From NCBI RefSeq assembly GCF_027942865.1, contig NC_134507.1:922571-986570 (forward strand): a stretch of DNA of 64,000 bases, in the 5' to 3' direction. Position 1 is the first letter of the stretch. Each line of letters begins with the position of its first letter. The stretch is from Odontesthes bonariensis. Taxonomy: Eukaryota; Chordata; Actinopteri; Atheriniformes; Atherinopsidae. Below, one piece after another: positions 8,380-52,270 of the stretch. Under the pieces are notes generated by a model. It was not told the DNA's origin. It saw nothing but the letters and a program-made list of their open reading frames with translations, and ran no database searches. The position numbers and the translations under genes are program-made.

Positions 8380-9650
8380 TTTTATAAATTTATTTGCAAC
8401 AAAACAGAATAACGACATATAAATGTGTACATAACGTCAAAAAAAAAAAGAAGCCAGCCAAGGGGAGCATAAGGATAAGAATAATAATAAGAGAGAGTTT
8501 TTGCAAAACTCTTGCAAAAAGAAAACTATTGAACAAACTGACATATGTGCCAAGGAGTCTCGTGTAAAAAAATAAAAAAACAAACAAATAAAACAAAGAT
8601 TTAGGACAACAGTTCGTCCATAATCCCAAGTTGGGAACAAGCACATATTGTTGTTTTTGCTTTATGATTAGTTGAAGGTTTAATTGTGAGCAAGTATTGC
8701 TTTAATTCAATAAAAAAAACATAGAAATTTGGTTTTCTTTTCAAAGATGTGTATTTGTGTATGTGAAATTTAGCTTTGATAATTAATAAATGAATAAAGA
8801 AAACCTTTGGGTTCATTTTGCCACTTAGTTGAAACCCAAACAGGACATGTTCCCAGTACAACAGGAAGCTCGCTGATATTTTTAAGTCAACAAAATTACA
8901 AAAATGTTGCCAGAAATCTTCACAATGAGGACACAACCAGAACATATGAGTAATGGCCTCAGGGCAAAGGTCACAGAAGGTACAGTTCACATTAATGTTA
9001 GAGTTGAACTTCTTTAGGTGGTCTTTAGCAGGGTGGATCCTGGGAATGAGTTTAAAGGACACTTCCTTTACCTCGTTAGTGAGAAGAAAGTGATTTGGGA
9101 GCAACCGGGTAAATTCCAAGATCAATTAATCCGAAAGCGATTCCAAAAAGGCCCGACAGCAGGAGCAGAAGTCGCCTCCTTCTGAAACGGGGATCTAACC
9201 GACTTATTATTGTTACCAAGAAGAGGGTTAAAACGTATTTTTCCACCAGGAGAATGTATGGGAGTAAGAGTCGGAGACTGATGATAACTGAGTCTCTTCC
9301 TCTGTTTGAAAAACACGCAAATCTTTGTAGAAAAAGCGCCAAAAACTTTTGCGAATTCTCCAGAAGAAATGGGAAATTAAATTTAGAGAGAAATTCCTCA
9401 TGACTCAGCAACGTGCCAACGCTGTTAAACAGTCGATCAACCAGAATAATGTTATGATTAAATAAAGTTTTCTTCTTAGATAAAATGTCCTTATTATTCC
9501 GTATGAAGTATCGATGAGGAGAGAAGTTGTGCTTGTAGATGAGTAACCATGATAAAAAGGCCTGATGGTGGAAATTAGAGAGTTTGAGTTTGATTGGGAG
9601 CTTCTGTATATTTGTTTCTCGTCCTGTAAAAATAAGGCGCTGTGCGTCAG
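8380..9650 (-). mobile_element. L1/Tx1-like LINE, 5'-truncated, ORF2 C-terminus plus 3' UTR (family A)
   Basis: The 3' UTR (8380-8640) matches the copy at 4695-5030. Upstream on the minus strand the ORF2 C-terminal region is readable. One frame gives CTFCDLCPEAITHMFWLCPH, a CxxC...HxxxxC finger-like motif of the zf-RVT type, and IKAKFHIHKYTSLKRKPNF. A second frame near 9380-9560 gives ILVDRLFNSVGTLLSHEEFL and KHNFSPHRYFIRNNKD. A frame change near 9115 separates the two, so the copy is dead. It lies in banf1 intron 1, antisense to the gene. Confidence 0.82.
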
Positions 9651-13199: not shown

Positions 13200-13707
13200 A
13201 AATAAAGTCTCCGGAAGATTTACAGGAGGACTTTGACCTCCGAGGACTGGGAAAAAGTATGTGCTGAAGCACAAACTACCGATACTCGTCTTAAAGTACT
13301 CCAATACAATTGGCTAATGAGGACGTATGTAACAAAAGAGAAAAGCTCAGTAAGTATAACGATACCATCCCAGACCTGTGTGTCAGGTTCTTCCACTGTG
13401 TCTGGGAATGCAGTAAAGTCCAACAAGCTTTAGAAACTATACTAGGTATAAAATGAGTTCTTGACCCTAAACTATTTATTCTAGGTTTATATCCTGATAG
13501 ACACTACATGTCTAGAAAAATAATCACTGCCCTGGACTTATGTTTACTGCTGGCAAAAAGAGTAAACCAAAAATCATCAGCTGGGTTAAGGAAATATCCA
13601 CAACTTTACCCATGGAGAAGATAACTTACATTATAAAAGGCAAAATATCACTATTTCAAAACATTTGGGGTCCTTTTATAGAATATATGGAGAATGTAGA
13701 TTTAAGT
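13200..13707 (+). mobile_element. L1/Tx1-like LINE (family B), ORF2 C-terminus, left piece of split copy
   Basis: The plus strand reads DLTSEDWEKVCAEAQ, then LQYNWLMRTYVTKEK, FHCVWECSKVQQALETIL, PKLFILGLYPDRHY and ITALDLCLLLAKR. This is the zf-RVT-type C-terminus of fish L1 ORF2, broken by an in-frame stop near 13459 and frame changes. The 3' UTR begins near 13690 and is cut at 13707. It resumes at 32351 after the hAT insertion. Confidence 0.85.
13700..13707 (+). repeat. hAT target-site duplication, left (ATTTAAGT)
   Basis: It pairs with ATTTCAGT at 32343-32350 (7 of 8 bases identical). The uninterrupted L1 copy at 34964-35461 has a single ATTTAAGT followed by AATGTGGG at this place. Confidence 0.9.
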
Positions 13708-14029
13708 CCTAGGTGTCAAACCCAAGGCCCGCGGGCCACATCCGGCCCGGCTTGCAATTATATCCGGCCCCCGAGATCATTTTATACAGTGGAAACTGCT
13801 TATAGTGGTCACGGATATAGTAATCATCAAACGCTTATATAGATCAAAAGGCTTGGGACAGAATCATGTTTATACAAACGCTGTTTAAATAATTTGTTTA
13901 TAGTAATCAAGAAATCCGCTTATAATGTTCATTTTTGGCCATTTTATGAATGTAAACATGTGAAATAATCATTTTAAAACTACGTGTAGCTATTTTATTT
14001 TTTACTCCCTTGATTCCTTTCTGGACGTC

Positions 14030-17000
14030 TGCTTCTGCCTATGCTTCTGCCTATGCTTCTGCCTATGCTTCTGCCTATGCTTCTGCCTATGCTTCTGCCC
14101 TATGCTTCTGCTCTATGCTTCTGCCCTATGCTTCTGCCTATGCTTCTGCCCTATGCTTCTGCCCTATGCTTCTGCCTATGCTTCTCCCTATGCTTCTGCC
14201 CTATGCTTCTGCCTATGCTTCTGCCTATGCTTCTGCCCTATGCTTCTGCCTATGCTTCTGCCTATGCTTCTGCCTATGCTTCTGCCCTATGCTTCTGCTT
14301 ATGCTTCTGCCCTATGCTTCTGCTTATGCTTCTGCCCTATGCTCCTGCCCTATGCTCCTGCCCTATGCTTCTGCCCTATGCTTCTGCTCTATGCTTCTGC
14401 CTATGCTTCTGCCTATGCTTCTGCCCTATGCTTCTGCCTATGCTTCTGCCCTATGCTTCTGCCTATGCTTTTGCCCTATGCTTCTGCTCTATGCTTCTGC
14501 CTATGCTTTTGCCCTATGCTTCTGCTCTATGCTTCTGCCTATGCTTCTGCCCTATGCTTCTGGCCTATGCTTCTGCTTCTGCTTCTGCCCTATGCTTCTG
14601 CTCTATGCTTCTGCCCTATGCTTCTGCCTATGCTTCTGCCCTATGCTTCTGCTCTATGCTTCTGCCCTATGCTTCTGCTCTATGCTTCTGCTCTATGCTC
14701 CTGCCCTATGCTTCTGCCCTATGCTTCTGCCTATGCTTCTTCTCTATGCTTCTGCTCTATGCTTCAGCCTATGCTTCTGCCTTATGCTTCTGCCTATGCT
14801 TCTGCCCTATGCTTCTGCCCTATGCTTCTGCCTATGCTTCTGCCCTATGCTTCTGCCCTATGCTTCTTCCCTATGCTTTTGCCCTATGCTTCTGCCTATG
14901 CTTCTGCCCTATGCTTCTGCCTATGCTTCTGCCCTATGCTTCTGCCCTATGCTTCTGCCTATGCTTCTGCCTATGCTTCTGCCCTATGCTTCTGCCTATG
15001 CTTCTGCCTATGCTTCTGCCCTATGCTCCTGCCCTATGCTTCTGTCTATGCTTCTGCCTATGCTTCTGCCCTATGCTTCTGCCTATGCTTCTGCCTATGC
15101 TTCTGCCTATGCTTCTGCCCTATGCTTCTGCTTATGCTTCTGCCCTATGCTTCTGCTTATGCTTCTGCCCTATGCTCCTGCCCTATGCTCCTGCCCTATG
15201 CTTCTGCCCTATGCTTCTGCTCTATGCTTCTGCCTATGCTTCTGCCTATGCTTCTGCCCTATGCTTCTGCCTATGCTTCTGCCCTATGCTTCTGCCTATG
15301 CTTTTGCCCTATGCTTCTGCTCTATGCTTCTGCCTATGCTTTTGCCCTATGCTTCTGCTCTATGCTTCTGCCTATGCTTCTGCCCTATGCTTCTGGCCTA
15401 TGCTTCTGCTTCTGCTTCTGCCCTATGCTTCTGCTCTATGCTTCTGCCCTATGCTTCTGCCTATGCTTCTGCCCTATGCTTCTGCTCTATGCTTCTGCCC
15501 TATGCTTCTGCTCTATGCTTCTGCTCTATGCTCCTGCCCTATGCTTCTGCCCTATGCTTCTGCCTATGCTTCTTCTCTATGCTTCTGCTCTATGCTTCAG
15601 CCTATGCTTCTGCCTTATGCTTCTGCCTATGCTTCTGCCCTATGCTTCTGCCCTATGCTTCTGCCTATGCTTCTGCCCTATGCTTCTGCCCTATGCTTCT
15701 TCCCTATGCTTTTGCCCTATGCTTCTGCCTATGCTTCTGCCCTATGCTTCTGCCTATGCTTCTGCCCTATGCTTCTGCCCTATGCTTCTGCCTATGCTTC
15801 TGCCTATGCTTCTGCCCTATGCTTCTGCCTATGCTTCTGCCTATGCTTCTGCCCTATGCTCCTGCCCTATGCTTCTGTCTATGCTTCTGCCTATGCTTCT
15901 GCCCTATGCTTCTGCCCTATGCTCCTGCCCTATGCTTCTGTCTATGCTTCTGCCTATGCTTCTGCCTATGCTTCTGCCCTATGCTCCTGCCCTATGCTTC
16001 TGTCTATGCTTCTGCCTATGCTTCTGCCCTATGCTTCTGCCCTATGCTCCTGCCCTATGCTTCTGCCTATGCTTCTGCCCTATGCTCCTGCCCTATGCTT
16101 CTGCCCTATGCTTCTGCTCTATGCTTCTGCTCTATGCTTCTGCCTATGCTTCTGCTCTATGCTCCTGCCCTATGCTTCTGCCTATGCTTCTGCCTATGCT
16201 TCTGCCCTTTGCTTCTGCCCTATGCTTCTGCCTATGCTTCTGCTCTATGCTTCTGCCTATGCTTCTACCCTATGCTTCTGCCCTATGCTTCTGCCTATGC
16301 TTCTGCCCTATGCTTCTGCCTATGCTTCTGCTCTATGCTTCTGCCTATGCTTCTGCCCTATGCTTCTGCTCTATGCTTCTGCCTATGCTTCTGCCCTATC
16401 CTTCTGCCTATGCTTCTGCCTATGCTTCTGCTCTATGCTTCTACCCTATGCTCCTGCCCTATGCTTCTGCTCTATGCTTCTGCCCTATGCTTCTGCCTAT
16501 GCTTCTGCTCTATGCTTCTGCCTATGCTTCTGCCCTATCCTTCTGCCTATGCTTCTGCCCTATGCTTCTGCCTATGCTTCTGCCCTATGCTTCTGCCTAT
16601 GCTTCTGCTCTATGCTTCTGCCTATGCTTCTGCCCTATCCTTCTGCCTATGCTTCTGCCCTATGCTTCTGCTCTATGCTTCTGCCCTATGCTTCTGCTCT
16701 ATGCTTCTGCCTATACTTCTGCCCTATGCTCCTGCCCTATGCTTCTGCTCTATGCTTCTGCCCTATGCTCCTGGCCTATGCTCCTGCCCTATGCTTCTGC
16801 CCTATGCTTCTGCTCTATGCTTCTGCTCTATGCTTCTGCCTATGCTTCTGCCTATGCTTCTGCCCTATGCTCCTGCCCTATGCTTCTGCCCTATGCTTCT
16901 GGCCTATGCTCCTGCCCTATGCTTCTGCCCTATGCTTCTGCCTATGCTTCTGCCCTATGCTTCTGCCTATGCTTCTGCCCTATGCTTCTGCCCTATGCTT

Positions 17001-20000
17001 CTGCTCTATGCTTCTGCCTATGCTTCTGCCCTATGCTCCTGCCCTATGCTTCTGCTCTATGCTTCTGCCTATGCTTCTGCCCTATGCTCCTGCCCTATGC
17101 TTCTGCTCTATGCTTCTGCCCTATGCTCCTGCCCTATGCTTCTGCCCTATGCTTCTGCCTATGCTTCTGCCTATGCTTCTGCTCTATGCTTCTGCCCTAT
17201 GCTTCTGCTCTATGCTTCTGCCCTATGCTTCTGCCTATGCTTCTGCCCTATTCTCCTGCCCTATGCTTCTGCTCTATGCTCCTGCCCTATGCTTCTGCCC
17301 TATGCTTCTGCCTATGCTTCTGCCCTATGCTTCTGCCCTATGCTCCTGCCCTATGCTTCTGCTCTATGCTCCTGCCCTATGCTTCTGCCCTATGCTTCTG
17401 CTCTATGCTTCTGCCCATGCTTCTGCCCATGCTTCTGCCCTATGCTTCTGCCTATGCTTCTGCTCTATGCTTCTGCCTATGCTTCTGCCCTATGCTTCTG
17501 CTCTATGCTTCTGCCTATGCTTCTGCTCTATGCTTCTGCCTATGCTCCTGCCCTATGCTTCTGCTCTATGCTTCTGCTCTATGCTTCTGCCTATGCTTCT
17601 GCCTATGCTTCTGCCCTATGCTTCTGCCCTATGCTTCTGCCTATGCTTATGCCCTATGCTCCTGCCCTATGCTTCTGCTCTATGCTTCTTCCCTATGCTC
17701 CTGCCCTATGCTTCTGCCCTATGCTTCTGCCTATGCTTCTGCCCTATGCTTCTGCCTATACTTCTGCCCTATACTTCTGCCCTATGCTTCTGCCTATGCG
17801 TCTGCCTATGCTTCTGCTCTATGCTTCTGCCCTATGCTTCTGCCTATGCTTCTGCCCTATGCTTCTGCCTATGCTTCTGCCCTATGCTCCTGCCCTATGC
17901 TTCTGCTCTATGCTCCTGCCCTATGCTTCTGCCCTATGCTTCTGCCCTATGCTTCTGCCCTATGCTTCTGCCCTATGCTTCTGCCTATGCTTCTGCCCTA
18001 TGCTTCTGCCTATGCTTCTGCCCTATGCTCCTGCCCTATGCTCCTGCCCTATGCTTCTGCTCTGTGCTCCTGCCCTATGCTTCTGCCTATGCTTCTGCCC
18101 TATGCTTCTGCTCTATGCTCCTGCCCTATGCTTCTGCCCTATGCTTCTGCTCTATGCTTCTGCCCTATGCTTCTGCCTATGCTTCTGCCCTATGCTTCTG
18201 CTCTATGCTTCTGCCCTATGCTTCTGCCTATGCTTCTGCCCTATGCTTCTGCCTATGCTTCTGCCCTATGCTTCTGCCTATGCTTCTGCCCTATGCTTCT
18301 GCTCTATGCTCCTGCCCTATGCTTCTGCTCTATGCTTCTGCCTATGCTTCTGCCCTATGCTTCTGCCTATGCTTCTGCCCTATGCTTCTGCTCTATGCTT
18401 CTGCCCTATAATTCTGCTTTATGCTTCTGCCCATGCTTCTGCCCTATGCTTCTGCCTATGCTTCTGCTCTATTATTCTGCCTATGCTCCTGCCCTATGCT
18501 TCTGCTCTATGCTTCTGCCCTAAGCTTCTGCTCTATGCTTCTGCCCTATGCTTCTGCCCTATGCTTCTGCCTATGCTTCTGCCCTATGCTTCTGCTCTAT
18601 GCTTCTGCCCTATGCTTCTGCTCTATGCTTCCGCCCTATGCTTCTGCCCATGCTTCTGCCTATGCTTCTGCCTATGCTTCTGCCCTATGCTTTTGCCTAT
18701 GCTCCTGCCCTATGCTTCTGCCCTATGCTTCTGCTCTATGCTTCTGCCCTATGCTTCTGCTCTATGCTTCTGCCCTATGCTTCTGCCTATGCTTCTGCCC
18801 TATGCTCCTGCCCTATGCTTCTGCTCTATGCTCCTGCCCTATGCTTCTGCCCTATGCTTCTGCCTATGCTTCTGCCCTATGCTTCTGCCTATGCTTCTGC
18901 CCTATGCTCCTGCCCTATGCTTCTGCTCTATGCTTCTGCCTATGCTTCTGCCTATGCTTCTGCCCTATGCTTCTGCTCTATGCTTCTGCTCTATGCTCCT
19001 GCCCTATGCTTCTGCCCTATGCTTCTGCCTATGCTTCTGCCCTATGCTTCTGCTCTATGCTCCTGCCCTATGCTTCTGCCCTATGCTTCTGCTCTATGCT
19101 TCTGCCCTATGCTTCTGCCTATGCTTCTGCCCTATGCTTCTGCTCTATGCTTCTGCCCTATGCTTCTGCCTATGCTTCTGCCCTATGCTTCTGCCTATGC
19201 TTCTGCCCTATGCTTCTGCTCTATGCTCCTGCCCTATGCTTCTGCTCTATGCTTCTGCCTATGCTTCTGCCCTATGCTCCTGCCCTATGCTTCTGCTCTA
19301 TTCTTCTGCCCTATAATTCTGCTTTATGCTTCTGCCCATGCTTCTGCCCTATGCTTCTGCCTATGCTTCTGCTCTATTATTCTGCCTATGCTCCTGCCCT
19401 ATGCTTCTGCTCTATGCTTCTGCCCTAAGCTTCTGCTCTATGCTTCTGCCCTATGCTTCTGCCCTATGCTTCTGCCTATGCTTCTGCCCTATGCTTCTGC
19501 TCTATGCTTCTGCCCTATGCTTCTGCTCTATGCTTCCGCCCTATGCTTCTGCCTATGCTTCTGCCCTATGCTTCTGCCTATGCTTCTGCCTATGCTTCTG
19601 CCCTATAATTCTGCTTTATGCTTCTGCCCATGCTTCTGCCTATGCTTCTTCCTATGCTTCTGCCCTATGCTTTTGCCTATGCTCCTGCCCTATGCTTCTG
19701 CCCTATGCTTCTGCCCTATGCTTCTGCCCTATGCTTCTGCTCTATGCTTCTGCTCTATGCTTCTGCCCTATGCTTCTGCCCTATGCTTCTGCCCTATGCT
19801 TCTGCTCTATGCTTCTACCTTATGCTTCTGCCCTATGCTTCTGCCCTATGCTTCTGCCTATGCTTCTGCCCTATGCTTCTGCCTGTGCTTCTGGCTATGC
19901 TTCTGCCCTATGCTTCTGCCCTATGCTTCTGCCCTATGCTTCTGCCTATGCTTCTGCTCTATGCTTCTGCCTATGCTCCTGCCCTATGCTTCTGCTCTAT

Positions 20001-23000
20001 GCTTCTGCCCTATGCTTCTGCTCTATGCTTCTGCCCTATGCTTGTGCCCTATGCTTCTGCCTATGCTTCTGCCCTATGCTTCTGCCTATGCTTCTGCCTA
20101 TGCTTCTGCCCTATGCTTCTGCTCTATGCTTCTGCCCTATGCTTGTGCCCTATGCTTCTGCTCTATGCTTCTGCCTTATGCTTCTGCCCTATGCTTCTGC
20201 CCTATGCTTCTGCCCTATGCTTCTGCCCTATGCTTCTGCTCTATGCTTCTGCCTTATGCTTCTGCCCTATGGTTCTGCCCTATGCTACTGCCTATCCTTC
20301 TGCCTATGCTTCTGCCCTATGCTTCTGCCCTATGCTTCTGCTCTATGCTTTTGCCCTATGCTTCTGCTCTATGCTTCTGCCTGTGCTTCTGCCCTATGCT
20401 CCTGCCCTATCCTTCTGCCCTATGCTCCTGCCCTATGCTTCTGCCCTATGCTTCTGCCTATGCTTCTGCCCTATGCTTCTGCCCTCTGCTTCTGCCTGTG
20501 CTTCTGCTCTATGCTTCTGCCCTATGCTACTGCCTATGCTTCTGCCTATGCTTCTGCCCTATGCTTCTGCCCTATGCTCCTGCCCTATGCTTCTGCCCTA
20601 TGCTTCTGCCTATGCTTCTGCCCTATGCTTCTGCCCTCTGCTTCTGCCTGTGCTTCTGCCCTATGCTTCTGCCCTATGCTACTGCCTATGCTTCTGCCCA
20701 TGCTTCTGCCCTATGCTTCTGCCCTATGCTACTGCCTATGCTTCTGCCTATGCTTCTGCCCTATGCTTCTGCCCTATGCTTCTGCTCTATGCTTTTGCCC
20801 TATGCTTCTGCCCTATGCTTCTGCCTGTGCTTCTGCCCTATGCTTCTGCCCTATGCTCCTGCCCTATCCTTCTGCCCTATGCTCCTGCCCTATGCTTCTG
20901 CCTATGCTTCTGCCTATGCTCCTGCCCTATGCTTCTGCCCTATGCTTCTGCCTATGCTTCTGCTCTATGCTTCTGCCTATGCTTCTGCCCTATGCTTCTG
21001 CCTATGCTTCTGCCCTATGCTTCTGCCCTATGCTTCTGCCTAAGCTTCTGCCTATGCTTCTCCCTATGCTTCTGCCCTATGCTTCTGCCCTATGCTTCTG
21101 CCTATGCTTCTGCCCTATGCTTCTGCCAATGCTTCTGCCTATGCTTCTGCCCTATGCTTCTGCCCTATGCTTCTCCCTATGCTTCTGCCCTATGCTTCTG
21201 CCCTATGCTTCTGCCTATGCTTCTGCCCTATGCTTCTGCCTATGCTTCTGCCTATGCTTCTGCCTATGCTTGTGCCCTATGCTTGTGCCCTATGCTTGTG
21301 CCCTATGCTTCTGCCCTATGCTTCTGCCTATGCTTCTGCCTATGCTTCTGCCCTATGCTTCTGCCTATGCTTCTGCCCTATGCTTCTGCCCTATGCTTCT
21401 GCCTATGCTTCTGCTCTATGCTTCTGCCCTGTGCTTCTGCCCTATGCTTCTTTCTTTGCTTCTGCCTATGCTCCTACCCTATGCTTCTGCCCTATGCTTC
21501 TGCCTATGCTTCTGCCTATGCTTCTGCCCTATGCTTCTGCCCTATGCTTCTGCTCTATGCTTCTGCCCTATGCTTCTGCTCTATGCTTCTGCCCTATGCT
21601 TCTGCCCTATGCTTCTGCTCTATGCTTCTGCCCTATGCTTCTGCCTATGCTTCTGTCCTATCCTTCTGCCTATGCTTCTGCCCTATGCTTCTGCCCTATG
21701 CTTCTGCCTATCCTTCTGCCCTATGCTTCTGCTCTATGCTTCTGCCCTATGCTTCTGCCTATGCTTCTGCCTATGCTTCTGCCTATGCTTCTGCCTATGC
21801 TTCTACCTATGCTTCTGCCTATGCTTCTGCCCTATGCTTCTGCTCTATGCTTCTGCCTATGCTTCTGCCTATGCTTTTGCCTATGCTTCTACCCTATGCT
21901 TCTGCCTATGCTTCTGCCCTATGCTTCTACCCTATGCTTCTGCCTATGCTTCTGCCCTATGCTTCTGCTCTATGCTTCTGCCTATGCTTCTGCCTATGCT
22001 TCTGCCTATGCTTCTACCCTATGCTTCTGCCTATTCTTCTGCCCTATGCTTCTGCCTATGCTTCTGCCTATGCTTCTACCCTATGCTTCTGCCTATGCTT
22101 CTGCCCTATGCTTCTGCCTATGCTTCTACCCTATGCTTCTGCCTATGCTTCTACCCTATGCTTCTGCTCTATGCTTCTGCCCTATGCTTCTGCTCTATGC
22201 TTCTGCCCTATGCTTCTTCCTATGCTTCTGCCTATGCTTCTGCCTATGCTTCTACCCTATGCTTCTGCCCTATGCTTCTGCCTATGCTTCTGCCTATGCT
22301 TCTGCCTATGCTTCTACCCTATGCTTCTGCCTATGCTTCTGCCCTATGCTTCTGCCTATGCTTCTGCCTATGCTTCTGCTCTATGCTTCTGCCTATGCTT
22401 CTGCCTATGCTTCTGCCTATGCTTCTACCCTATGCTTCTGCCTATGTTTCTGCCCTATGCTTCTGCCCTATGCTTCTGCCTATGCTTCTGCTCTATGCGT
22501 CTGCCTATGCTTCTGCCCTAGGCTTCTGCCTATGCTTCTACCCTATGCTTCTGCCCTATGCTTCTGCCTATGCTTCTACCCTATGCTTCTGCCCTATGCT
22601 TCTACCCTATGCTTCTGCCTATGCTTCTGCCTATGCTTCTGCTCTATGCTTCTGCCTATGCTTCTGCCCTATGCTTCTGCTCTATGCTTCTGCCTATGCT
22701 TCTGCCCTATGCTTCTACCCTATGCTTCTGCCTATGCTTCTGCCTATGCTTCTGCCCTATGCTTCTGCCTATGCTTCTGCCCTATGCTTCTACCCTATGC
22801 TTCTGCCTATGCTTCTGCCTATGCTTCTGCCCTATGCTTCTGCCTATGCTTCTGCCCTATGCTTCTACCCTATGCTTCTGCCTATGCTTCTGCCCTATGC
22901 TTCTACCCTATGCTTCTGCTCTATGCTTCTGCCTATGCTTCTGCCTATGCTTCTGCCCTATGCTTCTGCTCTATGCTTCTGCCTATGCTTCTGCCCTATG

Positions 23001-26000
23001 CTTCTACCCTATGCTTCTGCCTATGCTTCTGCCTATGCTTCTGCCCTATGCTTCTGCCTATGCTTCTGCCCTATGCTTCTACCCTATGCTTCTGCCTATG
23101 CTTCTGCCTATGCTTCTGCCCTATGCTTCTGCCTATGCTTCTGCCCTATGCTTCTACCCTATGCTTCTGCCTATGCTTCTGCCCTATGCTTCTACCCTAT
23201 GCTTCTGCTCTATGCTTCTGCCTATGCTTCTGCCTATGCTTCTGCCCTATGCTTCTGCCCTATGCTTCTGCCCTATGCTTCTACCCTATGCTTCTGCCTA
23301 TGCTTCTGCCTATGCTTCTGCTCTATGCTTCTGCCTATGCTTCTGCCCTATGCTTCTACCCTATGCTTCTGCCTATGCTTCTGCCTATGCTTCTGCCCTA
23401 TGCTTCTGCCTATGCTTCTGCCCTATGCTTCTACCCTATGCTTCTGCCTATGCTTCTGCCTATGCTTCTGCCCTATGCTTCTGCCTATGCTTCTGCCCTA
23501 TGCTTCTACCCTATGCTTCTGCCTATGCTTCTGCCCTATGCTTCTACCCTATGCTTCTGCTCTATGCTTCTGCCTATGCTTCTGCCTATGCTTCTGCCCT
23601 ATGCTTCTGCCCTATGCTTCTGCCCTATGCTTCTACCCTATGCTCCTGCCCTATGCTCCTGCCCTATGCTTCTGCTCTGTGCTCCTGCCCTATGCTTCTG
23701 CCTATGCTTCTGCCCTATGCTTCTGCTCTATGCTCCTGCCCTATGCTTCTGCCCTATGCTTCTGCTCTATGCTTCTGCCCTATGCTTCTGCCTATGCTTC
23801 TGCCCTATGCTTCTGCTCTATGCTTCTGCCCTATGCTTCTGCCTATGCTTCTGCCCTATGCTTCTGCCTATGCTTCTGCCCTATGCTTCTGCCTATGCTT
23901 CTGCCCTATGCTTCTGCTCTATGCTCCTGCCCTATGCTTCTGCTCTATGCTTCTGCCTATGCTTCTGCCCTATGCTTCTGCCTATGCTTCTGCCCTATGC
24001 TTCTGCTCTATGCTTCTGCCCTATAATTCTGCTTTATGCTTCTGCCCATGCTTCTGCCCTATGCTTCTGCCTATGCTTCTGCTCTATTATTCTGCCTATG
24101 CTCCTGCCCTATGCTTCTGCTCTATGCTTCTGCCCTAAGCTTCTGCTCTATGCTTCTGCCCTATGCTTCTGCCCTATGCTTCTGCCTATGCTTCTGCCCT
24201 ATGCTTCTGCTCTATGCTTCTGCCCTATGCTTCTGCTCTATGCTTCCGCCCTATGCTTCTGCCCATGCTTCTGCCTATGCTTCTGCCTATGCTTCTGCCC
24301 TATGCTTTTGCCTATGCTCCTGCCCTATGCTTCTGCCCTATGCTTCTGCTCTATGCTTCTGCCCTATGCTTCTGCTCTATGCTTCTGCCCTATGCTTCTG
24401 CCTATGCTTCTGCCCTATGCTCCTGCCCTATGCTTCTGCTCTATGCTCCTGCCCTATGCTTCTGCCCTATGCTTCTGCCTATGCTTCTGCCCTATGCTTC
24501 TGCCTATGCTTCTGCCTATGCTTCTGCCTATGCTTCTGCCTATGCTTCTACCTATGCTTCTGCCTATGCTTCTGCCCTATGCTTCTGCTCTATGCTTCTG
24601 CCTATGCTTCTGCCTATGCTTTTGCCTATGCTTCTACCCTATGCTTCTGCCTATGCTTCTGCCCTATGCTTCTACCCTATGCTTCTGCCTATGCTTCTGC
24701 CCTATGCTTCTGCTCTATGCTTCTGCCTATGCTTCTGCCTATGCTTCTGCCTATGCTTCTACCCTATGCTTCTGCCTATTCTTCTGCCCTATGCTTCTGC
24801 CTATGCTTCTGCCTATGCTTCTACCCTATGCTTCTGCCTATGCTTCTGCCCTATGCTTCTGCCTATGCTTCTACCCTATGCTTCTGCCTATGCTTCTACC
24901 CTATGCTTCTGCTCTATGCTTCTGCCCTATGCTTCTGCTCTATGCTTCTGCCCTATGCTTCTTCCTATGCTTCTGCCTATGCTTCTGCCTATGCTTCTAC
25001 CCTATGCTTCTGCCCTATGCTTCTGCCTATGCTTCTGCCTATGCTTCTGCCTATGCTTCTACCCTATGCTTCTGCCTATGCTTCTGCCCTATGCTTCTGC
25101 CTATGCTTCTGCCTATGCTTCTGCTCTATGCTTCTGCCTATGCTTCTGCCTATGCTTCTGCCTATGCTTCTACCCTATGCTTCTGCCTATGTTTCTGCCC
25201 TATGCTTCTGCCCTATGCTTCTGCCTATGCTTCTGCTCTATGCGTCTGCCTATGCTTCTGCCCTAGGCTTCTGCCTATGCTTCTACCCTATGCTTCTGCC
25301 CTATGCTTCTGCCTATGCTTCTACCCTATGCTTCTGCCCTATGCTTCTACCCTATGCTTCTGCCTATGCTTCTGCCTATGCTTCTGCTCTATGCTTCTGC
25401 CTATGCTTCTGCCCTATGCTTCTGCTCTATGCTTCTGCCTATGCTTCTGCCCTATGCTTCTACCCTATGCTTCTGCCTATGCTTCTGCCTATGCTTCTGC
25501 CCTATGCTTCTGCCTATGCTTCTGCCCTATGCTTCTACCCTATGCTTCTGCCTATGCTTCTGCCTATGCTTCTGCCCTATGCTTCTGCCTATGCTTCTGC
25601 CCTATGCTTCTACCCTATGCTTCTGCCTATGCTTCTGCCCTATGCTTCTACCCTATGCTTCTGCTCTATGCTTCTGCCTATGCTTCTGCCTATGCTTCTG
25701 CCCTATGCTTCTGCTCTATGCTTCTGCCTATGCTTCTGCCCTATGCTTCTACCCTATGCTTCTGCCTATGCTTCTGCCTATGCTTCTGCCCTATGCTTCT
25801 GCCTATGCTTCTGCCCTATGCTTCTACCCTATGCTTCTGCCTATGCTTCTGCCTATGCTTCTGCCCTATGCTTCTGCCTATGCTTCTGCCCTATGCTTCT
25901 ACCCTATGCTTCTGCCTATGCTTCTGCCCTATGCTTCTACCCTATGCTTCTGCTCTATGCTTCTGCCTATGCTTCTGCCTATGCTTCTGCCCTATGCTTC

Positions 26001-29000
26001 TGCCCTATGCTTCTGCCCTATGCTTCTACCCTATGCTTCTGCCTATGCTTCTGCCTATGCTTCTGCTCTATGCTTCTGCCTATGCTTCTGCCCTATGCTT
26101 CTACCCTATGCTTCTGCCTATGCTTCTGCCTATGCTTCTGCCCTATGCTTCTGCCTATGCTTCTGCCCTATGCTTCTACCCTATGCTTCTGCCTATGCTT
26201 CTGCCTATGCTTCTGCCCTATGCTTCTGCCTATGCTTCTGCCCTATGCTTCTACCCTATGCTTCTGCCTATGCTTCTGCCCTATGCTTCTACCCTATGCT
26301 TCTGCTCTATGCTTCTGCCTATGCTTCTGCCTATGCTTCTGCCCTATGCTTCTGCCCTATGCTTCTGCCCTATGCTTCTACCCTATGCTCCTGCCCTATG
26401 CTCCTGCCCTATGCTTCTGCTCTGTGCTCCTGCCCTATGCTTCTGCCTATGCTTCTGCCCTATGCTTCTGCTCTATGCTCCTGCCCTATGCTTCTGCCCT
26501 ATGCTTCTGCTCTATGCTTCTGCCCTATGCTTCTGCCTATGCTTCTGCCCTATGCTTCTGCTCTATGCTTCTGCCCTATGCTTCTGCCTATGCTTCTGCC
26601 CTATGCTTCTGCCTATGCTTCTGCCCTATGCTTCTGCCTATGCTTCTGCCCTATGCTTCTGCTCTATGCTCCTGCCCTATGCTTCTGCTCTATGCTTCTG
26701 CCTATGCTTCTGCCCTATGCTTCTGCCTATGCTTCTGCCCTATGCTTCTGCTCTATGCTTCTGCCCTATAATTCTGCTTTATGCTTCTGCCCATGCTTCT
26801 GCCCTATGCTTCTGCCTATGCTTCTGCTCTATTATTCTGCCTATGCTCCTGCCCTATGCTTCTGCTCTATGCTTCTGCCCTAAGCTTCTGCTCTATGCTT
26901 CTGCCCTATGCTTCTGCCCTATGCTTCTGCCTATGCTTCTGCCCTATGCTTCTGCTCTATGCTTCTGCCCTATGCTTCTGCTCTATGCTTCCGCCCTATG
27001 CTTCTGCCCATGCTTCTGCCTATGCTTCTGCCTATGCTTCTGCCCTATGCTTTTGCCTATGCTCCTGCCCTATGCTTCTGCCCTATGCTTCTGCTCTATG
27101 CTTCTGCCCTATGCTTCTGCTCTATGCTTCTGCCCTATGCTTCTGCCTATGCTTCTGCCCTATGCTCCTGCCCTATGCTTCTGCTCTATGCTCCTGCCCT
27201 ATGCTTCTGCCCTATGCTTCTGCCTATGCTTCTGCCCTATGCTTCTGCCTATGCTTCTGCCCTATGCTCCTGCCCTATGCTTCTGCTCTATGCTTCTGCC
27301 TATGCTTCTGCCTATGCTTCTGCCCTATGCTTCTGCTCTATGCTTCTGCTCTATGCTCCTGCCCTATGCTTCTGCCCTATGCTTCTGCCTATGCTTCTGC
27401 CCTATGCTTCTGCTCTATGCTCCTGCCCTATGCTTCTGCCCTATGCTTCTGCTCTATGCTTCTGCCCTATGCTTCTGCCTATGCTTCTGCCCTATGCTTC
27501 TGCTCTATGCTTCTGCCCTATGCTTCTGCCTATGCTTCTGCCCTATGCTTCTGCCTATGCTTCTGCCCTATGCTTCTGCTCTATGCTCCTGCCCTATGCT
27601 TCTGCTCTATGCTTCTGCCTATGCTTCTGCCCTATGCTCCTGCCCTATGCTTCTGCTCTATTCTTCTGCCCTATAATTCTGCTTTATGCTTCTGCCCATG
27701 CTTCTGCCCTATGCTTCTGCCTATGCTTCTGCTCTATTATTCTGCCTATGCTCCTGCCCTATGCTTCTGCTCTATGCTTCTGCCCTAAGCTTCTGCTCTA
27801 TGCTTCTGCCCTATGCTTCTGCCCTATGCTTCTGCCTATGCTTCTGCCCTATGCTTCTGCTCTATGCTTCTGCCCTATGCTTCTGCTCTATGCTTCCGCC
27901 CTATGCTTCTGCCTATGCTTCTGCCCTATGCTTCTGCCTATGCTTCTGCCTATGCTTCTGCCCTATAATTCTGCTTTATGCTTCTGCCCATGCTTCTGCC
28001 TATGCTTCTTCCTATGCTTCTGCCCTATGCTTTTGCCTATGCTCCTGCCCTATGCTTCTGCCCTATGCTTCTGCCCTATGCTTCTGCCCTATGCTTCTGC
28101 CCTATGCTTCTGCTCTATGCTTCTGCTCTATGCTTCTGCCCTATGCTTCTGCCCTATGCTTCTGCCCTATGCTTCTGCTCTATGCTTCTACCTTATGCTT
28201 CTGCCCTATGCTTCTGCCCTATGCTTCTGCCTATGCTTCTGCCCTATGCTTCTGCCTGTGCTTCTGGCTATGCTTCTGCCCTATGCTTCTGCCCTATGCT
28301 TCTGCCCTATGCTTCTGCCTATGCTTCTGCTCTATGCTTCTGCCTATGCTCCTGCCCTATGCTTCTGCTCTATGCTTCTGCCCTATGCTTCTGCTCTATG
28401 CTTCTGCCCTATGCTTGTGCCCTATGCTTCTGCCTATGCTTCTGCCCTATGCTTCTGCCTATGCTTCTGCCTATGCTTCTGCCCTATGCTTCTGCTCTAT
28501 GCTTCTGCCCTATGCTTGTGCCCTATGCTTCTGCTCTATGCTTCTGCCTTATGCTTCTGCCCTATGCTTCTGCCCTATGCTTCTGCCCTATGCTTCTGCC
28601 CTATGCTTCTGCTCTATGCTTCTGCCTTATGCTTCTGCCCTATGGTTCTGCCCTATGCTACTGCCTATCCTTCTGCCTATGCTTCTGCCCTATGCTTCTG
28701 CCCTATGCTTCTGCTCTATGCTTTTGCCCTATGCTTCTGCTCTATGCTTCTGCCTGTGCTTCTGCCCTATGCTCCTGCCCTATCCTTCTGCCCTATGCTC
28801 CTGCCCTATGCTTCTGCCCTATGCTTCTGCCTATGCTTCTGCCCTATGCTTCTGCCCTCTGCTTCTGCCTGTGCTTCTGCTCTATGCTTCTGCCCTATGC
28901 TACTGCCTATGCTTCTGCCTATGCTTCTGCCCTATGCTTCTGCCCTATGCTCCTGCCCTATGCTTCTGCCCTATGCTTCTGCCTATGCTTCTGCCCTATG

Positions 29001-31243
29001 CTTCTGCCCTCTGCTTCTGCCTGTGCTTCTGCCCTATGCTTCTGCCCTATGCTACTGCCTATGCTTCTGCCCATGCTTCTGCCCTATGCTTCTGCCCTAT
29101 GCTACTGCCTATGCTTCTGCCTATGCTTCTGCCCTATGCTTCTGCCCTATGCTTCTGCTCTATGCTTTTGCCCTATGCTTCTGCCCTATGCTTCTGCCTG
29201 TGCTTCTGCCCTATGCTTCTGCCCTATGCTCCTGCCCTATCCTTCTGCCCTATGCTCCTGCCCTATGCTTCTGCCTATGCTTCTGCCTATGCTCCTGCCC
29301 TATGCTTCTGCCCTATGCTTCTGCCTATGCTTCTGCTCTATGCTTCTGCCTATGCTTCTGCCCTATGCTTCTGCCTATGCTTCTGCCCTATGCTTCTGCC
29401 CTATGCTTCTGCCTAAGCTTCTGCCTATGCTTCTCCCTATGCTTCTGCCCTATGCTTCTGCCCTATGCTTCTGCCTATGCTTCTGCCCTATGCTTCTGCC
29501 AATGCTTCTGCCTATGCTTCTGCCCTATGCTTCTGCCCTATGCTTCTCCCTATGCTTCTGCCCTATGCTTCTGCCCTATGCTTCTGCCTATGCTTCTGCC
29601 CTATGCTTCTGCCTATGCTTCTGCCTATGCTTCTGCCTATGCTTGTGCCCTATGCTTGTGCCCTATGCTTGTGCCCTATGCTTCTGCCCTATGCTTCTGC
29701 CTATGCTTCTGCCTATGCTTCTGCCCTATGCTTCTGCCTATGCTTCTGCCCTATGCTTCTGCCCTATGCTTCTGCCTATGCTTCTGCTCTATGCTTCTGC
29801 CCTGTGCTTCTGCCCTATGCTTCTTTCTTTGCTTCTGCCTATGCTCCTACCCTATGCTTCTGCCCTATGCTTCTGCCTATGCTTCTGCCTATGCTTCTGC
29901 CCTATGCTTCTGCCCTATGCTTCTGCTCTATGCTTCTGCCCTATGCTTCTGCTCTATGCTTCTGCCCTATGCTTCTGCCCTATGCTTCTGCTCTATGCTT
30001 CTGCCCTATGCTTCTGCCTATGCTTCTGTCCTATCCTTCTGCCTATGCTTCTGCCCTATGCTTCTGCCCTATGCTTCTGCCTATCCTTCTGCCCTATGCT
30101 TCTGCTCTATGCTTCTGCCCTATGCTTCTGCCTATGCTTCTGCCTATGCTTCTGCCTATGCTTCTGCCTATGCTTCTACCTATGCTTCTGCCTATGCTTC
30201 TGCCCTATGCTTCTGCTCTATGCTTCTGCCTATGCTTCTGCCTATGCTTTTGCCTATGCTTCTACCCTATGCTTCTGCCTATGCTTCTGCCCTATGCTTC
30301 TACCCTATGCTTCTGCCTATGCTTCTGCCCTATGCTTCTGCTCTATGCTTCTGCCTATGCTTCTGCCTATGCTTCTGCCTATGCTTCTACCCTATGCTTC
30401 TGCCTATTCTTCTGCCCTATGCTTCTGCCTATGCTTCTGCCTATGCTTCTACCCTATGCTTCTGCCTATGCTTCTGCCCTATGCTTCTGCCTATGCTTCT
30501 ACCCTATGCTTCTGCCTATGCTTCTACCCTATGCTTCTGCTCTATGCTTCTGCCCTATGCTTCTGCTCTATGCTTCTGCTCTATGCTTCTTCCTATGCTT
30601 CTGCCTATGCTTCTGCCTATGCTTCTACCCTATGCTTCTGCCCTATGCTTCTGCCTATGCTTCTGCCTATGCTTCTGCCTATGCTTCTACCCTATGCTTC
30701 TGCCTATGCTTCTGCCCTATGCTTCTGCCTATGCTTCTGCCTATGCTTCTGCTCTATGCTTCTGCCTATGCTTCTGCCTATGCTTCTGCCTATGCTTCTA
30801 CCCTATGCTTCTGCCTATGTTTCTGCCCTATGCTTCTGCCCTATGCTTCTGCCTATGCTTCTGCTCTATGCGTCTGCCTATGCTTCTGCCCTAGGCTTCT
30901 GCCTATGCTTCTACCCTATGCTTCTGCCCTATGCTTCTGCCTATGCTTCTACCCTATGCTTCTGCCCTATGCTTCTACCCTATGCTTCTGCCTATGCTTC
31001 TGCCTATGCTTCTGCTCTATGCTTCTGCCTATGCTTCTGCCCTATGCTTCTGCTCTATGCTTCTGCCTATGCTTCTGCCCTATGCTTCTGCCCTATGCTT
31101 CTACCCTATGCTTCTGCCTATGCTTCTGCCTATGCTTCTGCTCTATGCTTCTGCCTATGCTTCTGCCTATGCTTCTGCTCTATGCTTCTGCCTATGCTTC
31201 TGCCCTATGCTTCTGCTCTATGCTTCTGCCTATGCTTCTGCCT
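14030..31243 (+). repeat. 17.2-kb array of a 12/13-bp unit, about 1,370 copies
   Basis: The units are TATGCTTCTGCC (12 bp) and CTATGCTTCTGCC or TCTATGCTTCTGC (13 bp) mixed irregularly. Point variants (TATGCTCCTGCC, TATGCTTTTGCC, TATGCTACTGCC and others) mark longer duplications. None of the three plus-strand frames of the unit contains a stop (YASA, MLLP, LCFC), so stop-free frames of up to about 2,190 codons arise. They lack complexity, splice logic and homology and are not genes. The plus strand is about 75% pyrimidine. Confidence 0.98.
14240..15900 (+). repeat. 833-bp direct duplication in the left part of the array
   Basis: The variant run CTTCTTCTCTATGC followed by CTTCAGCC appears near 14741 and again near 15574, with matching neighbours over several hundred bases. 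Confidence 0.85.
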
Positions 31244-31270
31244 CGCTAGCTAACGTAACGAGTTGACACC
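18421..31270 (+). repeat. Higher-order duplications inside the 12/13-bp array
   Basis: A rare variant unit, CTATTATTCTGCC, has its ATTATT at 18471, 19376, 24086, 26831 and 27736. The spacings imply blocks of 905, 2745 and 8360 bp. A second rare variant, CTAGGCTTC, lies at 22518, 25263 and 30891 and gives offsets of 2745 and 8373 bp. The extra 13 bp equals one unit. Thus about 18.4-22.9 kb is repeated at 26.8-31.2 kb. Confidence 0.9.
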
Positions 31271-31290
31271 GGGCAGCAAGCGCGCGAATC

Positions 31291-31494
31291 ATGGCTGGAA
31301 AAAGGAAGTAATTTTCTCTGAATGAAAAACGTAGTCTCCTCGAGGCATATGACAAATTACCAAAAACGAGCCAACGAGATGCTGCGGCGAAGCTTGGCAT
31401 TCCTCAGGCTACCTCGTGTAGTCTAATTAAGCAACGAGAAACAGTCATGAATGCTAACGACCGAGAAAGAAAACGACGGCGGACTGCGCAGTAA
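31291..31494 (+). pseudogene. pogo/Tigger transposase N-terminal remnant
   Basis: An ATG at 31291 opens a 67-codon frame whose seventh codon is TAA (31309-31311). After it the frame reads FSLNEKRSLLEAYDKLP, then RDAAAKLGIPQATSCSLIKQ. This is the CENP-B/pogo-type N-terminal helix-turn-helix that binds the transposon ends. It stops at TAA 31492-31494. The DDE catalytic domain is absent. The ATG is 47 bp from the end of the tandem array, so the array sits where the 5' leader of the transposase gene should be. Confidence 0.8.
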
Positions 31495-32342
31495 TTAAAT
31501 TAATATTAATAATTAAATGTAATTAAACTTGCATGATAATAAAATTGAGTAAATGCTGAAGCTGTTTCATTTCATTTTTCTCATTGAGAAACGATGCAAA
31601 TGGCATTTAGAGGATATTCTGCATAAAAAAATAAGTGAAATACCTGTACTGTAATACAAATCAACCGCTTATAGTGTTCAAATTGGCTCTGGACCAACGT
31701 GATCACTATAAGCGGTTTCCACTGTATTATTGTTACTGATGGCTGGTAACACAATAAACTACAGATCCCATAATGCATCCAGCTCTGATAAAATGGCATA
31801 AGAGCAAAGAAAACTGAAGGTTTTGATTGGTTATTTATTATTGCTGAAAAGCCCAAATTTTATTTACATTTCCAGGTTTTGTTTTGCAGCATGTTCATAT
31901 TTCTAACTTGTATAATTTTGACAGGAGATATTTTTATGGAGAGTAAAATCATTTGGGATATTTAAAATTTAAGTCTTTTTTAATATAAAATTACATAAAA
32001 CCAAAGAAATTCAAATGTTTTGATTTGTTATTTAATGTTTACTTAAAGCACAAGCACTTTCACAATTTTTTTTTTTTTCTGGCATTTTTTGCAGCATGTT
32101 CATATTTCTAACTTGTATAATTTTGAGTGGATATATTTTTATGGAGAACAAGATATTTTAAGTTAAAGTTTAAGTTTTTTTATTCCAGAATAACATTCCT
32201 GTCTGTTTTTATTCATATTTGTGTTAAAAAAAAAAAAAAACATTTAGTTTTAGTGTGTTCAATAATGTCTATTCTGTTCGGCCCGCGACCTAAAGTGTGT
32301 TTTGACTTTTGGCCCCCGGTGCAATTGAGTTTGACACCCCTG

Positions 32343-32350
32343 ATTTCAGT
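32343..32350 (+). repeat. hAT target-site duplication, right (ATTTCAGT)
   Basis: The partner of 13700-13707, with one mismatch. Confidence 0.9.
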
Positions 32351-32695
32351 AATGTGGGTAACGAAGACGAAGAGGCGTAGTTGTTGGTTGTCCTTTCTGT
32401 GATCTATGGTTCAAAAATCTGTATTTTTGAACCATATAGGTACAATAGCGAAATAATATGGGCTTATTCTTGTCAAGATAGAGAAACGTTCATTGTTCTG
32501 GTTGTTGTTTCTTTTCGGTTTTTTACTTGTACTAAGTGTTGCTCTATATTATCTCATAAATATCTGACTTGCAAGGAAGGACAATAACTTTGCCCCTGAT
32601 GTCTCCTGGGAGATGAGAGCGCTCTTATTTCTGAATATGTGTGTTTTGGAAAAATGTTGAAAACTCAATAAAGATAATGTTGGGGAAAAAAATAA
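32351..32695 (+). mobile_element. L1/Tx1-like LINE (family B), 3' UTR, right piece of split copy
   Basis: It resumes at AATGTGGGTAACGAAGACG and ends in ACTCAATAAAGATAATGTTG followed by an A-rich tail. It is colinear with the intact copy at 35071-35461. Confidence 0.9.
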
Positions 32696-33513
32696 AGCGT
32701 AACAAAGTAAGAAGATCTCATGCTTAGATCCGTCTGATAAAAGTGGAAATAAAACGTTTAACTCTGATCGTTTCCGACTCAAATCAGCTGAAAAACAAAA
32801 CAAAACAGGAACTACAAATCCATAAATAACTTTATTACAGTTTCAGAGGAGAACAAAGACAGATAAATACAGTTTGTTTCAATAAATAAAAAGGTTTCAG
32901 TTTTTTCACAGAGCAGAAACAAACCTGTCCAACTTCACACAAACAGGTGAGGACGCACCAGCAGGTGGCGCCAGAGACGCTCCGGCAGCCAATCAGGCGC
33001 CATCATATGCCAGAGACGCTCCAGCAGCCTATCAGGCGCCATCATATGTCAGAGTCATTAAAGTGAGAAATGACAGAAACGCTGTTAACGTGCAGGTAAA
33101 CATCATGAAAAGGAGGAAATTAAACAGTTTAACAGAAAATTCTTTATGGAAACCAGCTGATCAGCCGTTTGAACGAGGGTCACATGATCAGAGGCTTCTC
33201 AGGTGAGGGTCACATGATCAGAGGCTTCTCAGGTGAGGGTATATTTATTCTATTAACTGATCCGCTCAAGGATTAAAAACGTTCAGCAGCTGAAAGAAGT
33301 TAAAATGAACAGAGACTGAAGGATGTGGCTCCAGTTAAACCAGTTTAACCAGACCCAGCTGTTTACCTTCAGCCAGTTTCATCTCTCAGAATAAAACTTC
33401 GGCCGTTTGGAGGAGCAGCCGCAGACCTGAGGAAGGAAAGCTGCTGAACTTTGTTCCTTTTACTGTTGGAACAAACCTTCCACTGATTGGTGGTATTGGT
33501 GGTCTTGCCGGCT
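32696..33513 (-). other. elovl6l 3' UTR and downstream flank
   Basis: On the minus strand an AATAAA signal lies at 32831-32836, about 680 bp after the stop codon. Two short direct duplications are visible: a unit with CCAGAGACGCTCC and CAGGCGCCATCATATG (about 32970-33055), and one with GGGTCACATGATCAGAGGCT (33177-33240). No other gene is seen. Confidence 0.65.
32831..32836 (-). promoter_or_regulatory. elovl6l polyadenylation signal (AATAAA)
   Basis: A canonical hexamer on the minus strand, within CTGTAATAAAGTT. Confidence 0.6.
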
Positions 33514-33938
33514 CTACTGGGTCTTGGCGGTCTTGGCGTCGCGGCGCAGGTAGGTCCGGTAGAAGAAGTTGACGAACAGCAGCAGGTAGCTGAGGTACAT
33601 GAGCGAGGCCCAGGTGATGTTGGCGAGGCGGGACGGGCAGTCGCCCTGCTGCATCCAGCGGTACACCAGCCCGCTGACGGCCACGCCCATCACCATCTGC
33701 AGGATCTGAGCGCTGGTGATCAGCACGGCCAGGGGGCGGGGCACGCGCAGCCGGGCCGCCCGCGCCGCATAGTAGCTGTACATCAGGGCGTGCACGCCGT
33801 AGTTCATGGTCATGAACCAGCCGCCGCCCGCCACCATGTCTTTGTAGGAGTACCAGGAGTACAGCAGCACGGTGATGTGGTGGTACCAGTGCAGGAAGAG
33901 CAGCTTCTGCTTCCTCAGCACGATGAACGCCGTGTCGC
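33514..33938 (-). CDS. elovl6l: elovl6l exon 4 (last coding exon)
   Basis: The acceptor AG is at 33940-33939. It encodes from [12 protein letters not shown] through the HxxHH box to the C-terminus [10 protein letters not shown], with stop TAG at 33516-33514. Confidence 0.95.
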
Positions 33939-41940: not shown

Positions 41941-42284
41941 GTTTACTGTTAATCTGACAGGTTCAACTTTTAAATTGAACACTTTTCCACATTTATTTTC
42001 TGCTTTTATTAAACTTTTACATCAGGAAGTTACACAGTTCTGCAGGTGAAGCTGCTCCGAGCAGCAGCTCTTATAAACTCCTGGTTTGATCTGTTTACAG
42101 GTGAATGTGCCGAGCAGGTAAACCAGTTCAGCTGTAAACATCACAGCAGGGAGGCAGAGATGTGGTGAAAGGAGACAAACAGGCCGAGCAGCCTGAGGTG
42201 AACAGAACAGGATCAGGTGGAACAGGTGAGGAAAGTGTCTGAGCTGCACCTTCCTCTGCTGAGGAACAACAAAGCTCTGAGTCA
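41941..42284. other. Unique flank of the 55-bp array
   Basis: No gene or transposon is recognised. Confidence 0.5.

Positions 42285-51379: not shown

Positions 51380-52270
<891 letters not shown>

Follow-up and report, generated by a model that had tools for sequence, protein, structure and literature searches.

The window analysed here, a 64,000-nucleotide stretch of Odontesthes bonariensis DNA, holds a set of nested elements, the outermost of which is an interrupted copy of a putative L1 3' end, judging by its likeness to a relative elsewhere in the window and by its open reading frames; the latter presumably derive from an L1-type LINE, of which the end alone is present. The left piece of this 3' region (13595..13707, forward strand) ends in a target-site copy, ATTTAAGT, at 13700-13707, and the right piece (32351..32696, forward strand) reaches the terminal repeat. 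The relative (34966..35460, forward strand) is a paralogous empty site that has no hAT and possesses near-identical flanks (ATCAGAAGTTTC / ATCTGAAGTTTC). Window positions 13595-13693 match 34966-35064 of this relative at 97 of 99 bases; over the right part, from 32342 onward, 341 bases align, 20 of them mismatched, and a further 65 positions are gaps. The initial annotation had described an L1 that is interrupted between 13707 and 32351, where its relative is continuous; this description holds, save that the broken copy has 7 additional bases (AATGTAG) to the left of the duplication.

The break is occupied by a non-autonomous hAT-like element (13708..32342; no strand assigned) of about 695 bp once its own insert is subtracted. 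We assign it to the hAT superfamily from its 8-bp target duplication (ATTTAAGT at 13700-13707 and ATTTCAGT at 32343-32350, which differ by one mismatch) and from its short inverted ends (CCTAGGTGTCAAAC / GTTTGACACCCCTG, with an inverted match over GGTGTCAAAC), as had been annotated. We also considered a composite hAT-plus-pogo unit that moves jointly, an idea prompted by a match of another pogo locus, L002, across the hAT-pogo junction. That candidate was rejected: the L002 hAT shares a 36-bp likeness with the window hAT at its end only, and its right side is unrelated. Since this is a different hAT, the pogo element entered two hATs independently.

Within the hAT-like element lies a non-autonomous pogo/Tigger-type element (13787..31724, forward strand) of 17,938 bp, which would measure about 735 bp if the array inside it were cut to one unit. 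Its terminal inverted repeats (left, CAGTGGAAACTGCTTATAGTGGTCACG, 13787..13813, forward strand; right, 31698..31724, reverse strand) match in inverted orientation at 25 of 27 bases, and TA target-site copies abut them at 13785..13786 and 31725..31726; the annotated TA-flanked pogo ends are thereby substantiated. With up to 5 mismatches to the 21-bp end allowed, this is the sole such pair in the window, and TA also flanks both sides of every family element that was read with both ends found. Near the right end is a remnant of the start of the transposase gene (31291..31491, forward strand; MAGKRK*FSLNEKRSLLEAYDKLPKTSQRDAAAKLGIPQATSCSLIKQRE...), with a stop at codon 7. Read in frame minus its first seven codons, this remnant has iRhom1-2_N as its best Pfam hit, below the cut-off (E 0.026), and no match in the PDB. 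A CENP-B/Tc5-type DNA-binding domain was found in one family member only, L003, in which HTH_Tnp_Tc5 is hit (E 1.7e-14) downstream of the start and in a different frame from it; the first 50 residues of L003 yield HTH hits below the cut-off (E 0.033 or worse) and a weak match to CENP-B (1bw6, E 0.038). The pogo/Tigger-type family of which this element is a member is both large and young.

The bulk of this pogo element is an array of 12/13-bp units (TATGCTTCTGCC / CTATGCTTCTGCC and variants) at 14030..31242 on the forward strand, which extends for 17,213 bp and comprises 1361.8 copies according to TRF, in agreement with the roughly 1,370 units annotated earlier. The four unit words that we tested occur, within the window, on the forward strand only and are confined to the array, along which the unit variants change. 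Superimposed on the units are three forward-strand block duplications with identities of 99.8-100%. One is a tandem duplication at an offset of 833 bp (14186..15916), in which 14186-15083 equals 15019-15916 with 2 mismatches; another is a large duplication (18009..31102) at offsets of 5,615-5,628 and 8,360-8,373 bp, exemplified by 19685-22729 and 28058-31102 (2 mismatches in 3,045); the last is a tandem duplication at an offset of 2,745 bp (21734..27261), in which 21734-24516 and 24479-27261 are the same at all 2,783 positions. A strong fold-back of the unit was considered as a candidate driver of slippage. Of two 131-nt stretches that we folded, the purine-rich strand outperforms its shuffles (z of -4.3 and -7.0), but its absolute folding energies are weak, at -9.5 and -11.3 kcal/mol; the opposite strand folds no better than shuffles.

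A check had been proposed, namely to look in other copies of this pogo family for short versions of the repeat, located after the left end and before the transposase ATG; a survey of the 945-Mb host assembly found them. A 21-base word at the left edge of the array has 437 exact arm matches genome-wide, among which fold-back copies count twice. We read 84 arms by script, with the window and two other long copies excluded and with two of 86 entries removed as false pattern matches. The seed, TGCTTCTGCC, occurs once or twice before the ATG in 73 of these 84 arms, at the position that corresponds to 14028..14039 of the window (forward strand; TCTGCTTCTGCC, preceded by TTTCTGGACG); single-unit and short-array copies thus occupy the same internal place as the long array. 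One unit was counted in 47 arms, two in 26, three in 5 and four in 3, with single cases of 6, 10 (binned as 9) and 19, the classes of at least three units being over-represented as one search targeted such copies. The two-unit form is TGCTTCTGCC-CTA-TGCTTCTGCC, with a 3-base spacer. Genome-wide, only 10 loci have at least three exact units directly behind the exact left flank, a pattern that misses copies with variant units, such as L032.

Two copies of the same pogo element contain further long arrays, of about 3.9 kb (on contig C6, 38997335-39001278) and 1.6 kb (on C24, 8597477-8599107), which are known from pattern hits in their interiors and from the outermost few hundred bases on either side. 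Both are bounded by the same left arm, 5' UTR and transposase start. Placement of a kilobase array within the element is thus seen at both ends in the window, and at the left end and the inner right part at C6 and C24. Growth of a pogo element to 18 kb had been annotated as unusual: the array does lie inside the pogo element, but this is not the sole case. The presence of the seed in most of the family arms read, together with long arrays in other pogo copies, leads us to conclude that the transposon's own sequence is the most likely source of the satellite. No hAT was seen in the left flanks of the C6 and C24 copies, and therefore the two outer levels, hAT and L1, are probably incidental rather than part of the cause. 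The three long copies have diverged by 2.5-3.1%, as compared to a median of 1.4% for 36 copies (Mann-Whitney 0.012); we do not rely upon age as a cause of long arrays, because selection as best matches biased many of the controls towards young copies.

We have weighed this transposon origin against a satellite that already existed before the pogo element captured it or received it as an insertion, such that the short arrays elsewhere are its remnants. We consider this highly improbable: in 47 of the 84 arms the single unit runs directly into 5' UTR sequence on both sides, and no array of perfect 13-bp units was found outside the pogo family in the clusters examined. The latter result derives from matches to three perfect 13-bp units (100 listed of 103), which fall into 8 clusters, 6 of which were examined (all save C6:2291189 and C28:9090980) and lie in this pogo family. 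Scarcely more probable is that the length of the array is an assembly error, that is, a false duplication within a repeat, as might be suspected from the exact 2,783-bp internal duplication and the near-exact 3-kb copies. Against this, there is no N anywhere in the window, the assembly comprises 187 contigs (the longest seen being 48.5 Mb), about 8 kb of array persists when all three block duplications are subtracted, and the unit variants differ from one part of the array to another.

Two other explanations carry more weight, even though each seems unlikely to us. One is that a subfamily with the TAA codon gained a moderately long array once and that this element transposed with it, the three long arrays then descending from it with later gain or loss of length; this departs from the main proposal only as to whether jump or growth came first. 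Its attraction is that codon 7 has changed from TCA to TAA in 3/3 long arrays versus 5/64 scorable other arms (Fisher 0.0012, a comparison noticed post hoc, with 21 additional arms not scorable), and that a GCTC unit variant is common to the window and C6 arrays: 140 of its 158 forward occurrences in the genome are in the window, and all 13 of the doubled GCTC form are in the window (10) or at C6 (3). On the other hand, the doubled form was not found at C24, the TAA codon also occurs in copies that have 1, 2 and 3 units (L011, L023, L026, L033 and L032), and among the positions compared (at most 361) the three long copies share no derived base apart from the TAA codon. Given the shared codon and unit variant, a jump may have carried an array that was already lengthened; these variants fit equally well with lengthening ahead of the jump and with growth after it. 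The annotated order of L1, hAT, pogo and then array accordingly stands as regards the nesting, whereas its last step, pogo before array, is only likely. The other explanation attributes growth to location: the element sits in a minisatellite hotspot about 0.92 Mb into the contig, and the transposon would merely have supplied the word; this can act alongside the main proposal. Outside the array, tandem repeats of at least 300 bp cover 20.9 of 46.8 kb, in at least 8 arrays with differing units, and by chunk (14 of 3 kb) the tandem-repeat content is 47%, versus 0.3% at 79 other pogo loci (281 kb in total), which are short, partly overlapping and in no case matched for distance from the chromosome end. 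The minisatellite-rich surroundings may therefore explain the extreme size of the array. Nevertheless, long arrays of the same seed occur elsewhere too, the one on C6 being 3.2 Mb away from a contig end and the one on C24 8.6 Mb in, no array was seen by eye in the 295 and 171 bases outside their respective left ends, and a pogo copy nearer the contig end, at C2:261500, has one unit.

Our preferred reading, to which we assign a probability of about 0.88, is that the satellite grew from a seed in the pogo 5' UTR by neutral or selfish expansion; we put forward no function. The process would have started with a young pogo/Tigger-type family that carried the short seed in its 5' UTR. We infer that the one-unit form is ancestral; the two-unit form would have come from an initial duplication that included a 3-base spacer. 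Transposition would then have spread both forms, each of which is seen in copies, through the genome, and a few copies would have lengthened, presumably by slippage, to the 3, 4, 6, 10 and 19 units that are observed. Three copies reached kilobases at the same spot (1.6, 3.9 and 17.2 kb, the first two known from edges and pattern hits). The last growth of the window copy took the form of the visible block duplications of 0.8, 5.6 and 2.7 kb, for which unequal exchange or break-induced copying within the array would be the simplest mechanism; a minisatellite-rich neighbourhood probably favoured its extreme size, and the hAT and L1 would merely record the insertion site. As a more tentative extension, with the odds somewhat against it, the pogo family may be a mobile satellite seeder that has distributed hundreds of near-identical 10-bp seeds, with a TAA-subfamily form that is prone to kilobase runaway and was perhaps moved with an expanded array.

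Of the known cases, miDNA4 of Xenopus (Scalvenzi and Pollet 2014) comes closest; it is a Tc1/mariner MITE with an internal satellite that occurs as a single monomer or in arrays of varying copy number, and it underlies a model of satellite birth within a MITE, as recounted in PMC12628747 and PMC9659126. The window element is likewise non-autonomous and of Tc1/mariner type, with a single or arrayed internal repeat; it differs in being pogo-type, in its 12/13-bp unit, in its one array of 17.2 kb, and in a seed that seems native to the 5' UTR of the element rather than a captured repeat. In Lathyrus sativus, satellites are described as having expanded from short arrays in LTR retrotransposons (Vondrak et al., PMC7004042); the dispersal of short arrays by a transposon family and their occasional expansion, there chiefly in favourable chromosome regions, are similar, but that study concerns plant retrotransposons and reads, whereas here a DNA transposon shows seed and intermediates in one assembly. 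The satellite CficCl-61-40 of Chenopodium, from the CACTA element Jozin (PMC7320549), also took a DNA-transposon fragment (of about 40 bp) as its start monomer; its unit is reported to come from the transposase gene, while that of the window comes from the 5' UTR and both element ends are kept. According to PMC7325037, pogo/Tigger-like elements have a TA target and HTH and Tc5/CENP-B-type DNA-binding domains; these features recur in the window's family, although the window copy retains no more than its two ends and the beginning of the transposase gene. Set beside these accounts, the present case is unusually complete.

The starts of satellites are usually deduced from finished arrays; here, the starting word, the first duplication and the intermediates are found at one fixed position, so that the array and the family copies together form a stepwise record of the possible birth of a satellite from a transposon. 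There are several hundred arms in one genome, and the copies can be dated by divergence; as they are otherwise alike, growth rates and triggers (place, age or subfamily) can be measured by comparing them. If the family is indeed a seeder, then this genome would hold the stages of satellite birth, from 1 to about 1,360 units, at one position of one element.

We find that other copies of the window's pogo family carry short versions of the array repeat at the same spot, before the transposase ATG, and the main reading of the initial annotation, that a satellite has grown inside a pogo element, is supported. In a genome search with window 13700-14000, the best 40 matches of 512 candidates were scored; one is the window itself, and the remaining 39 are 88-95% identical, all except L002 (a pogo locus within a hAT-like element) starting at or near the pogo end. 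The left-edge word of the array, TTTCTGGACGTCTGCTTCTGC, occurs 437 times in the genome, with fold-back copies counted twice. In the copies read, the one-unit state at the array position is TGCTTCTGCC followed directly by TCGCTAGC, and the two-unit state is TGCTTCTGCCCTATGCTTCTGCC, its units 13 bp apart. Left arms were then counted by script (n=84 distinct arms after removal of two false matches, the window and the long copies on contigs C6 and C24 being omitted); in this non-random sample, drawn from the best matches, the first 30 left-edge words in positional order and loci picked for at least three units, 47 arms have one unit, 26 have two, five have three and three have four, and there is one arm each with 6, 10 (earlier binned as 9 by rounding) and 19 units. 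A pattern of the left flank followed immediately by at least three exact units occurs at 10 genome loci: the window and nine others with 3 to 19 units. The direction of change would be from one unit to many, with slippage as the probable means of the first growth steps.

Several of these loci have features of their own. Many pogo copies, among them L006, L007, L012, L016, L023 and L033, fold back and have a left arm at each end. Two arms were read at 19 loci, and within a single element they frequently hold unlike numbers of units, 1 in one arm and 2 in the other. At L030, the left arm holds four units, and past the seed (the short unit word of the pogo 5' UTR) it gives way to other sequence, LINE-like by eye. 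The array at L076 (C3:46071708), 0.45 Mb from a contig end, consists of ten pure 12-bp units like those that open the window array on its left, and may be closely related to the start of that array.

The window array itself is the extreme of this family. TRF gives 1361.8 copies at 14030-31242, in agreement with the roughly 1,370 copies of a 12/13-bp unit claimed previously, and the tested unit words were found on one strand only. Spacings between exact register words are 13 bp in 772 cases and 12 bp in 417, with 56 distinct spellings between these words, most commonly TATGCTTCTGCCC (404), TATGCTTCTGCC (376) and TATGCTTCTGCTC (180); the variants are unevenly distributed along the array. Large blocks are repeated within it: 21734-24516 equals 24479-27261 with no mismatch, 19685-22729 equals 28058-31102 with 2 mismatches, 18009-19816 equals 26369-28176 with 4, and 14186-15083 equals 15019-15916 with 2. 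Removal of one copy of each block leaves ~8 kb. These block copies imply that the last growth was by large duplications, recent as judged by their high identity and perhaps made through unequal exchange or a similar process, or that it is in part assembly error.

Two further kilobase-scale arrays were identified. Three consecutive perfect 13-bp units occur 94 times in forward and 9 times in reverse orientation in the genome; among the 100 of 103 matches listed, 39 are in the window, and two other dense clusters lie at C6:38997345-39001083 and C24:8597623-8599107. Short pieces read on both sides place the two arrays in this pogo family: each is preceded by the left pogo end with its arm and followed by the family's 5' UTR and the beginning of the transposase gene, the pieces ending before the right pogo end is complete. 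Their spans, judged from the edges with interiors known by pattern matches alone, are ~3.9 kb (C6) and ~1.6 kb (C24). No hAT was seen in the left flank of either copy. Two small clusters of perfect 13-bp units, at C6:2291189 and C28:9090980, have surroundings outside the set read.

Do these arrays descend from one subfamily, or did they arise in separate events? All three long copies (window, C6 and C24) have GGAAGTAATTTT where most copies have GGAAGTCATTTT, which creates a stop at codon 7; this stop is present in 3/3 long copies versus 5/64 scorable other arms (21 arms without a readable codon excluded), for which a Fisher value of 0.0012 is optimistic because the change was spotted only after the long copies were seen. 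Besides it, no derived base is common to the three copies in the arms compared. The GCTC unit variant occurs 158 times forward and never in reverse, with 140 of the 158 in the window, and its doubled form is found 10 times in the window, three times at C6 and nowhere else in the genome. The window and C6 arrays may thus have some array history in common, or the GCTC change may have recurred.

All levels of the claimed nest (L1, hAT, pogo, array) were found in the window, C2:922571-986570 of the host assembly (945 Mb, 187 contigs). The left L1 piece (13595-13693) is identical at 97/99 bases to a relative at 34966-35064, and the right piece has 20 mismatches to it over 341 aligned bases, plus indels; as claimed, this relative runs uninterrupted through the break point. 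Compared with it, the broken copy has 7 additional bases left of the proposed 8-bp duplication, which was recovered as ATTTAAGT (13700-13707) and ATTTCAGT (32343-32350) with hAT-like ends just inside. The hAT interior (31788-32196) contains a ~210-bp duplication, 73.6% identical. A third L1 3' tail copy lies at 36280-36338 (+), and a LINE piece at 8601-9125 (-) has an ORF whose end resembles zf-RVT (E 3.5e-05, short of the Pfam cut-off). The TA-flanked pogo ends at 13787 and 31724 were also borne out, matching at 25/27 bases, with no further site in the window within 5 mismatches of the 21-bp pogo end. The transposase remnant reads MAGKRK, a stop, then FSLNEKRSLLEAYDKLPKTSQRDAAAKLGIPQATSCSLIKQRE; searched alone, it had no PDB match, and no Pfam domain scored above cut-off. 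A longer family member, L003, matches HTH_Tnp_Tc5 (E 1.7e-14), and its first 50 residues show a weak CENP-B likeness (E 0.038). By sequence, the window element is of pogo/Tigger type, because of its TA targets, its ends and the DNA-binding domain matches in L003. At L002:1501-2530, a different hAT-like element contains a pogo copy ~70 bp in from its left end, next to a 247-codon open frame; this is an independent pogo-in-hAT nest. The window's own nesting in hAT and L1 is ordinary. For the claimed order, pogo then array, the nest levels are seen as described, and we infer that the array grew after the pogo insertion.

The surroundings may also matter. Tandem repeats of at least 300 bp occupy 20.9 of the 46.8 kb of the window outside the pogo array. 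In 3-kb chunks, the tandem-repeat share is 47% in this part of the window (14 chunks, 11 containing one) versus 0.3% at a further 79 loci of the pogo family totalling 281 kb, some of which overlap one another and which are not matched to the window for distance from a chromosome end. At least eight further minisatellite arrays, with different-looking units of 5 to 56 bp, lie at 1-3357, 6094-6816, 42283-45560, 48154-50858, 50999-52273, 53367-54570, 55383-56717 and 57411-64000. At 33514-33966 (-) lies an exon of a fatty acid elongase gene of the ELO family (ELO domain E 4.4e-47), which together with the repeat types points to a fish as host. An effect of place on the extreme array length is likely; it is probably not the whole cause, because two further long arrays sit elsewhere, in surroundings that were hardly seen.

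Passages of two reviews (PMC12628747, PMC9659126) describe the same general route, in which short arrays within transposons expand, and as described there miDNA4 of Xenopus is the nearest known case; plant cases are given by Vondrak et al. (PMC7004042) and Belyayev et al. (PMC7320549). A literature search returned no pogo-born satellite of such size among its results. The interest lies not in the nest itself but in the stepwise range of array lengths that a single transposon family shows at one fixed position.
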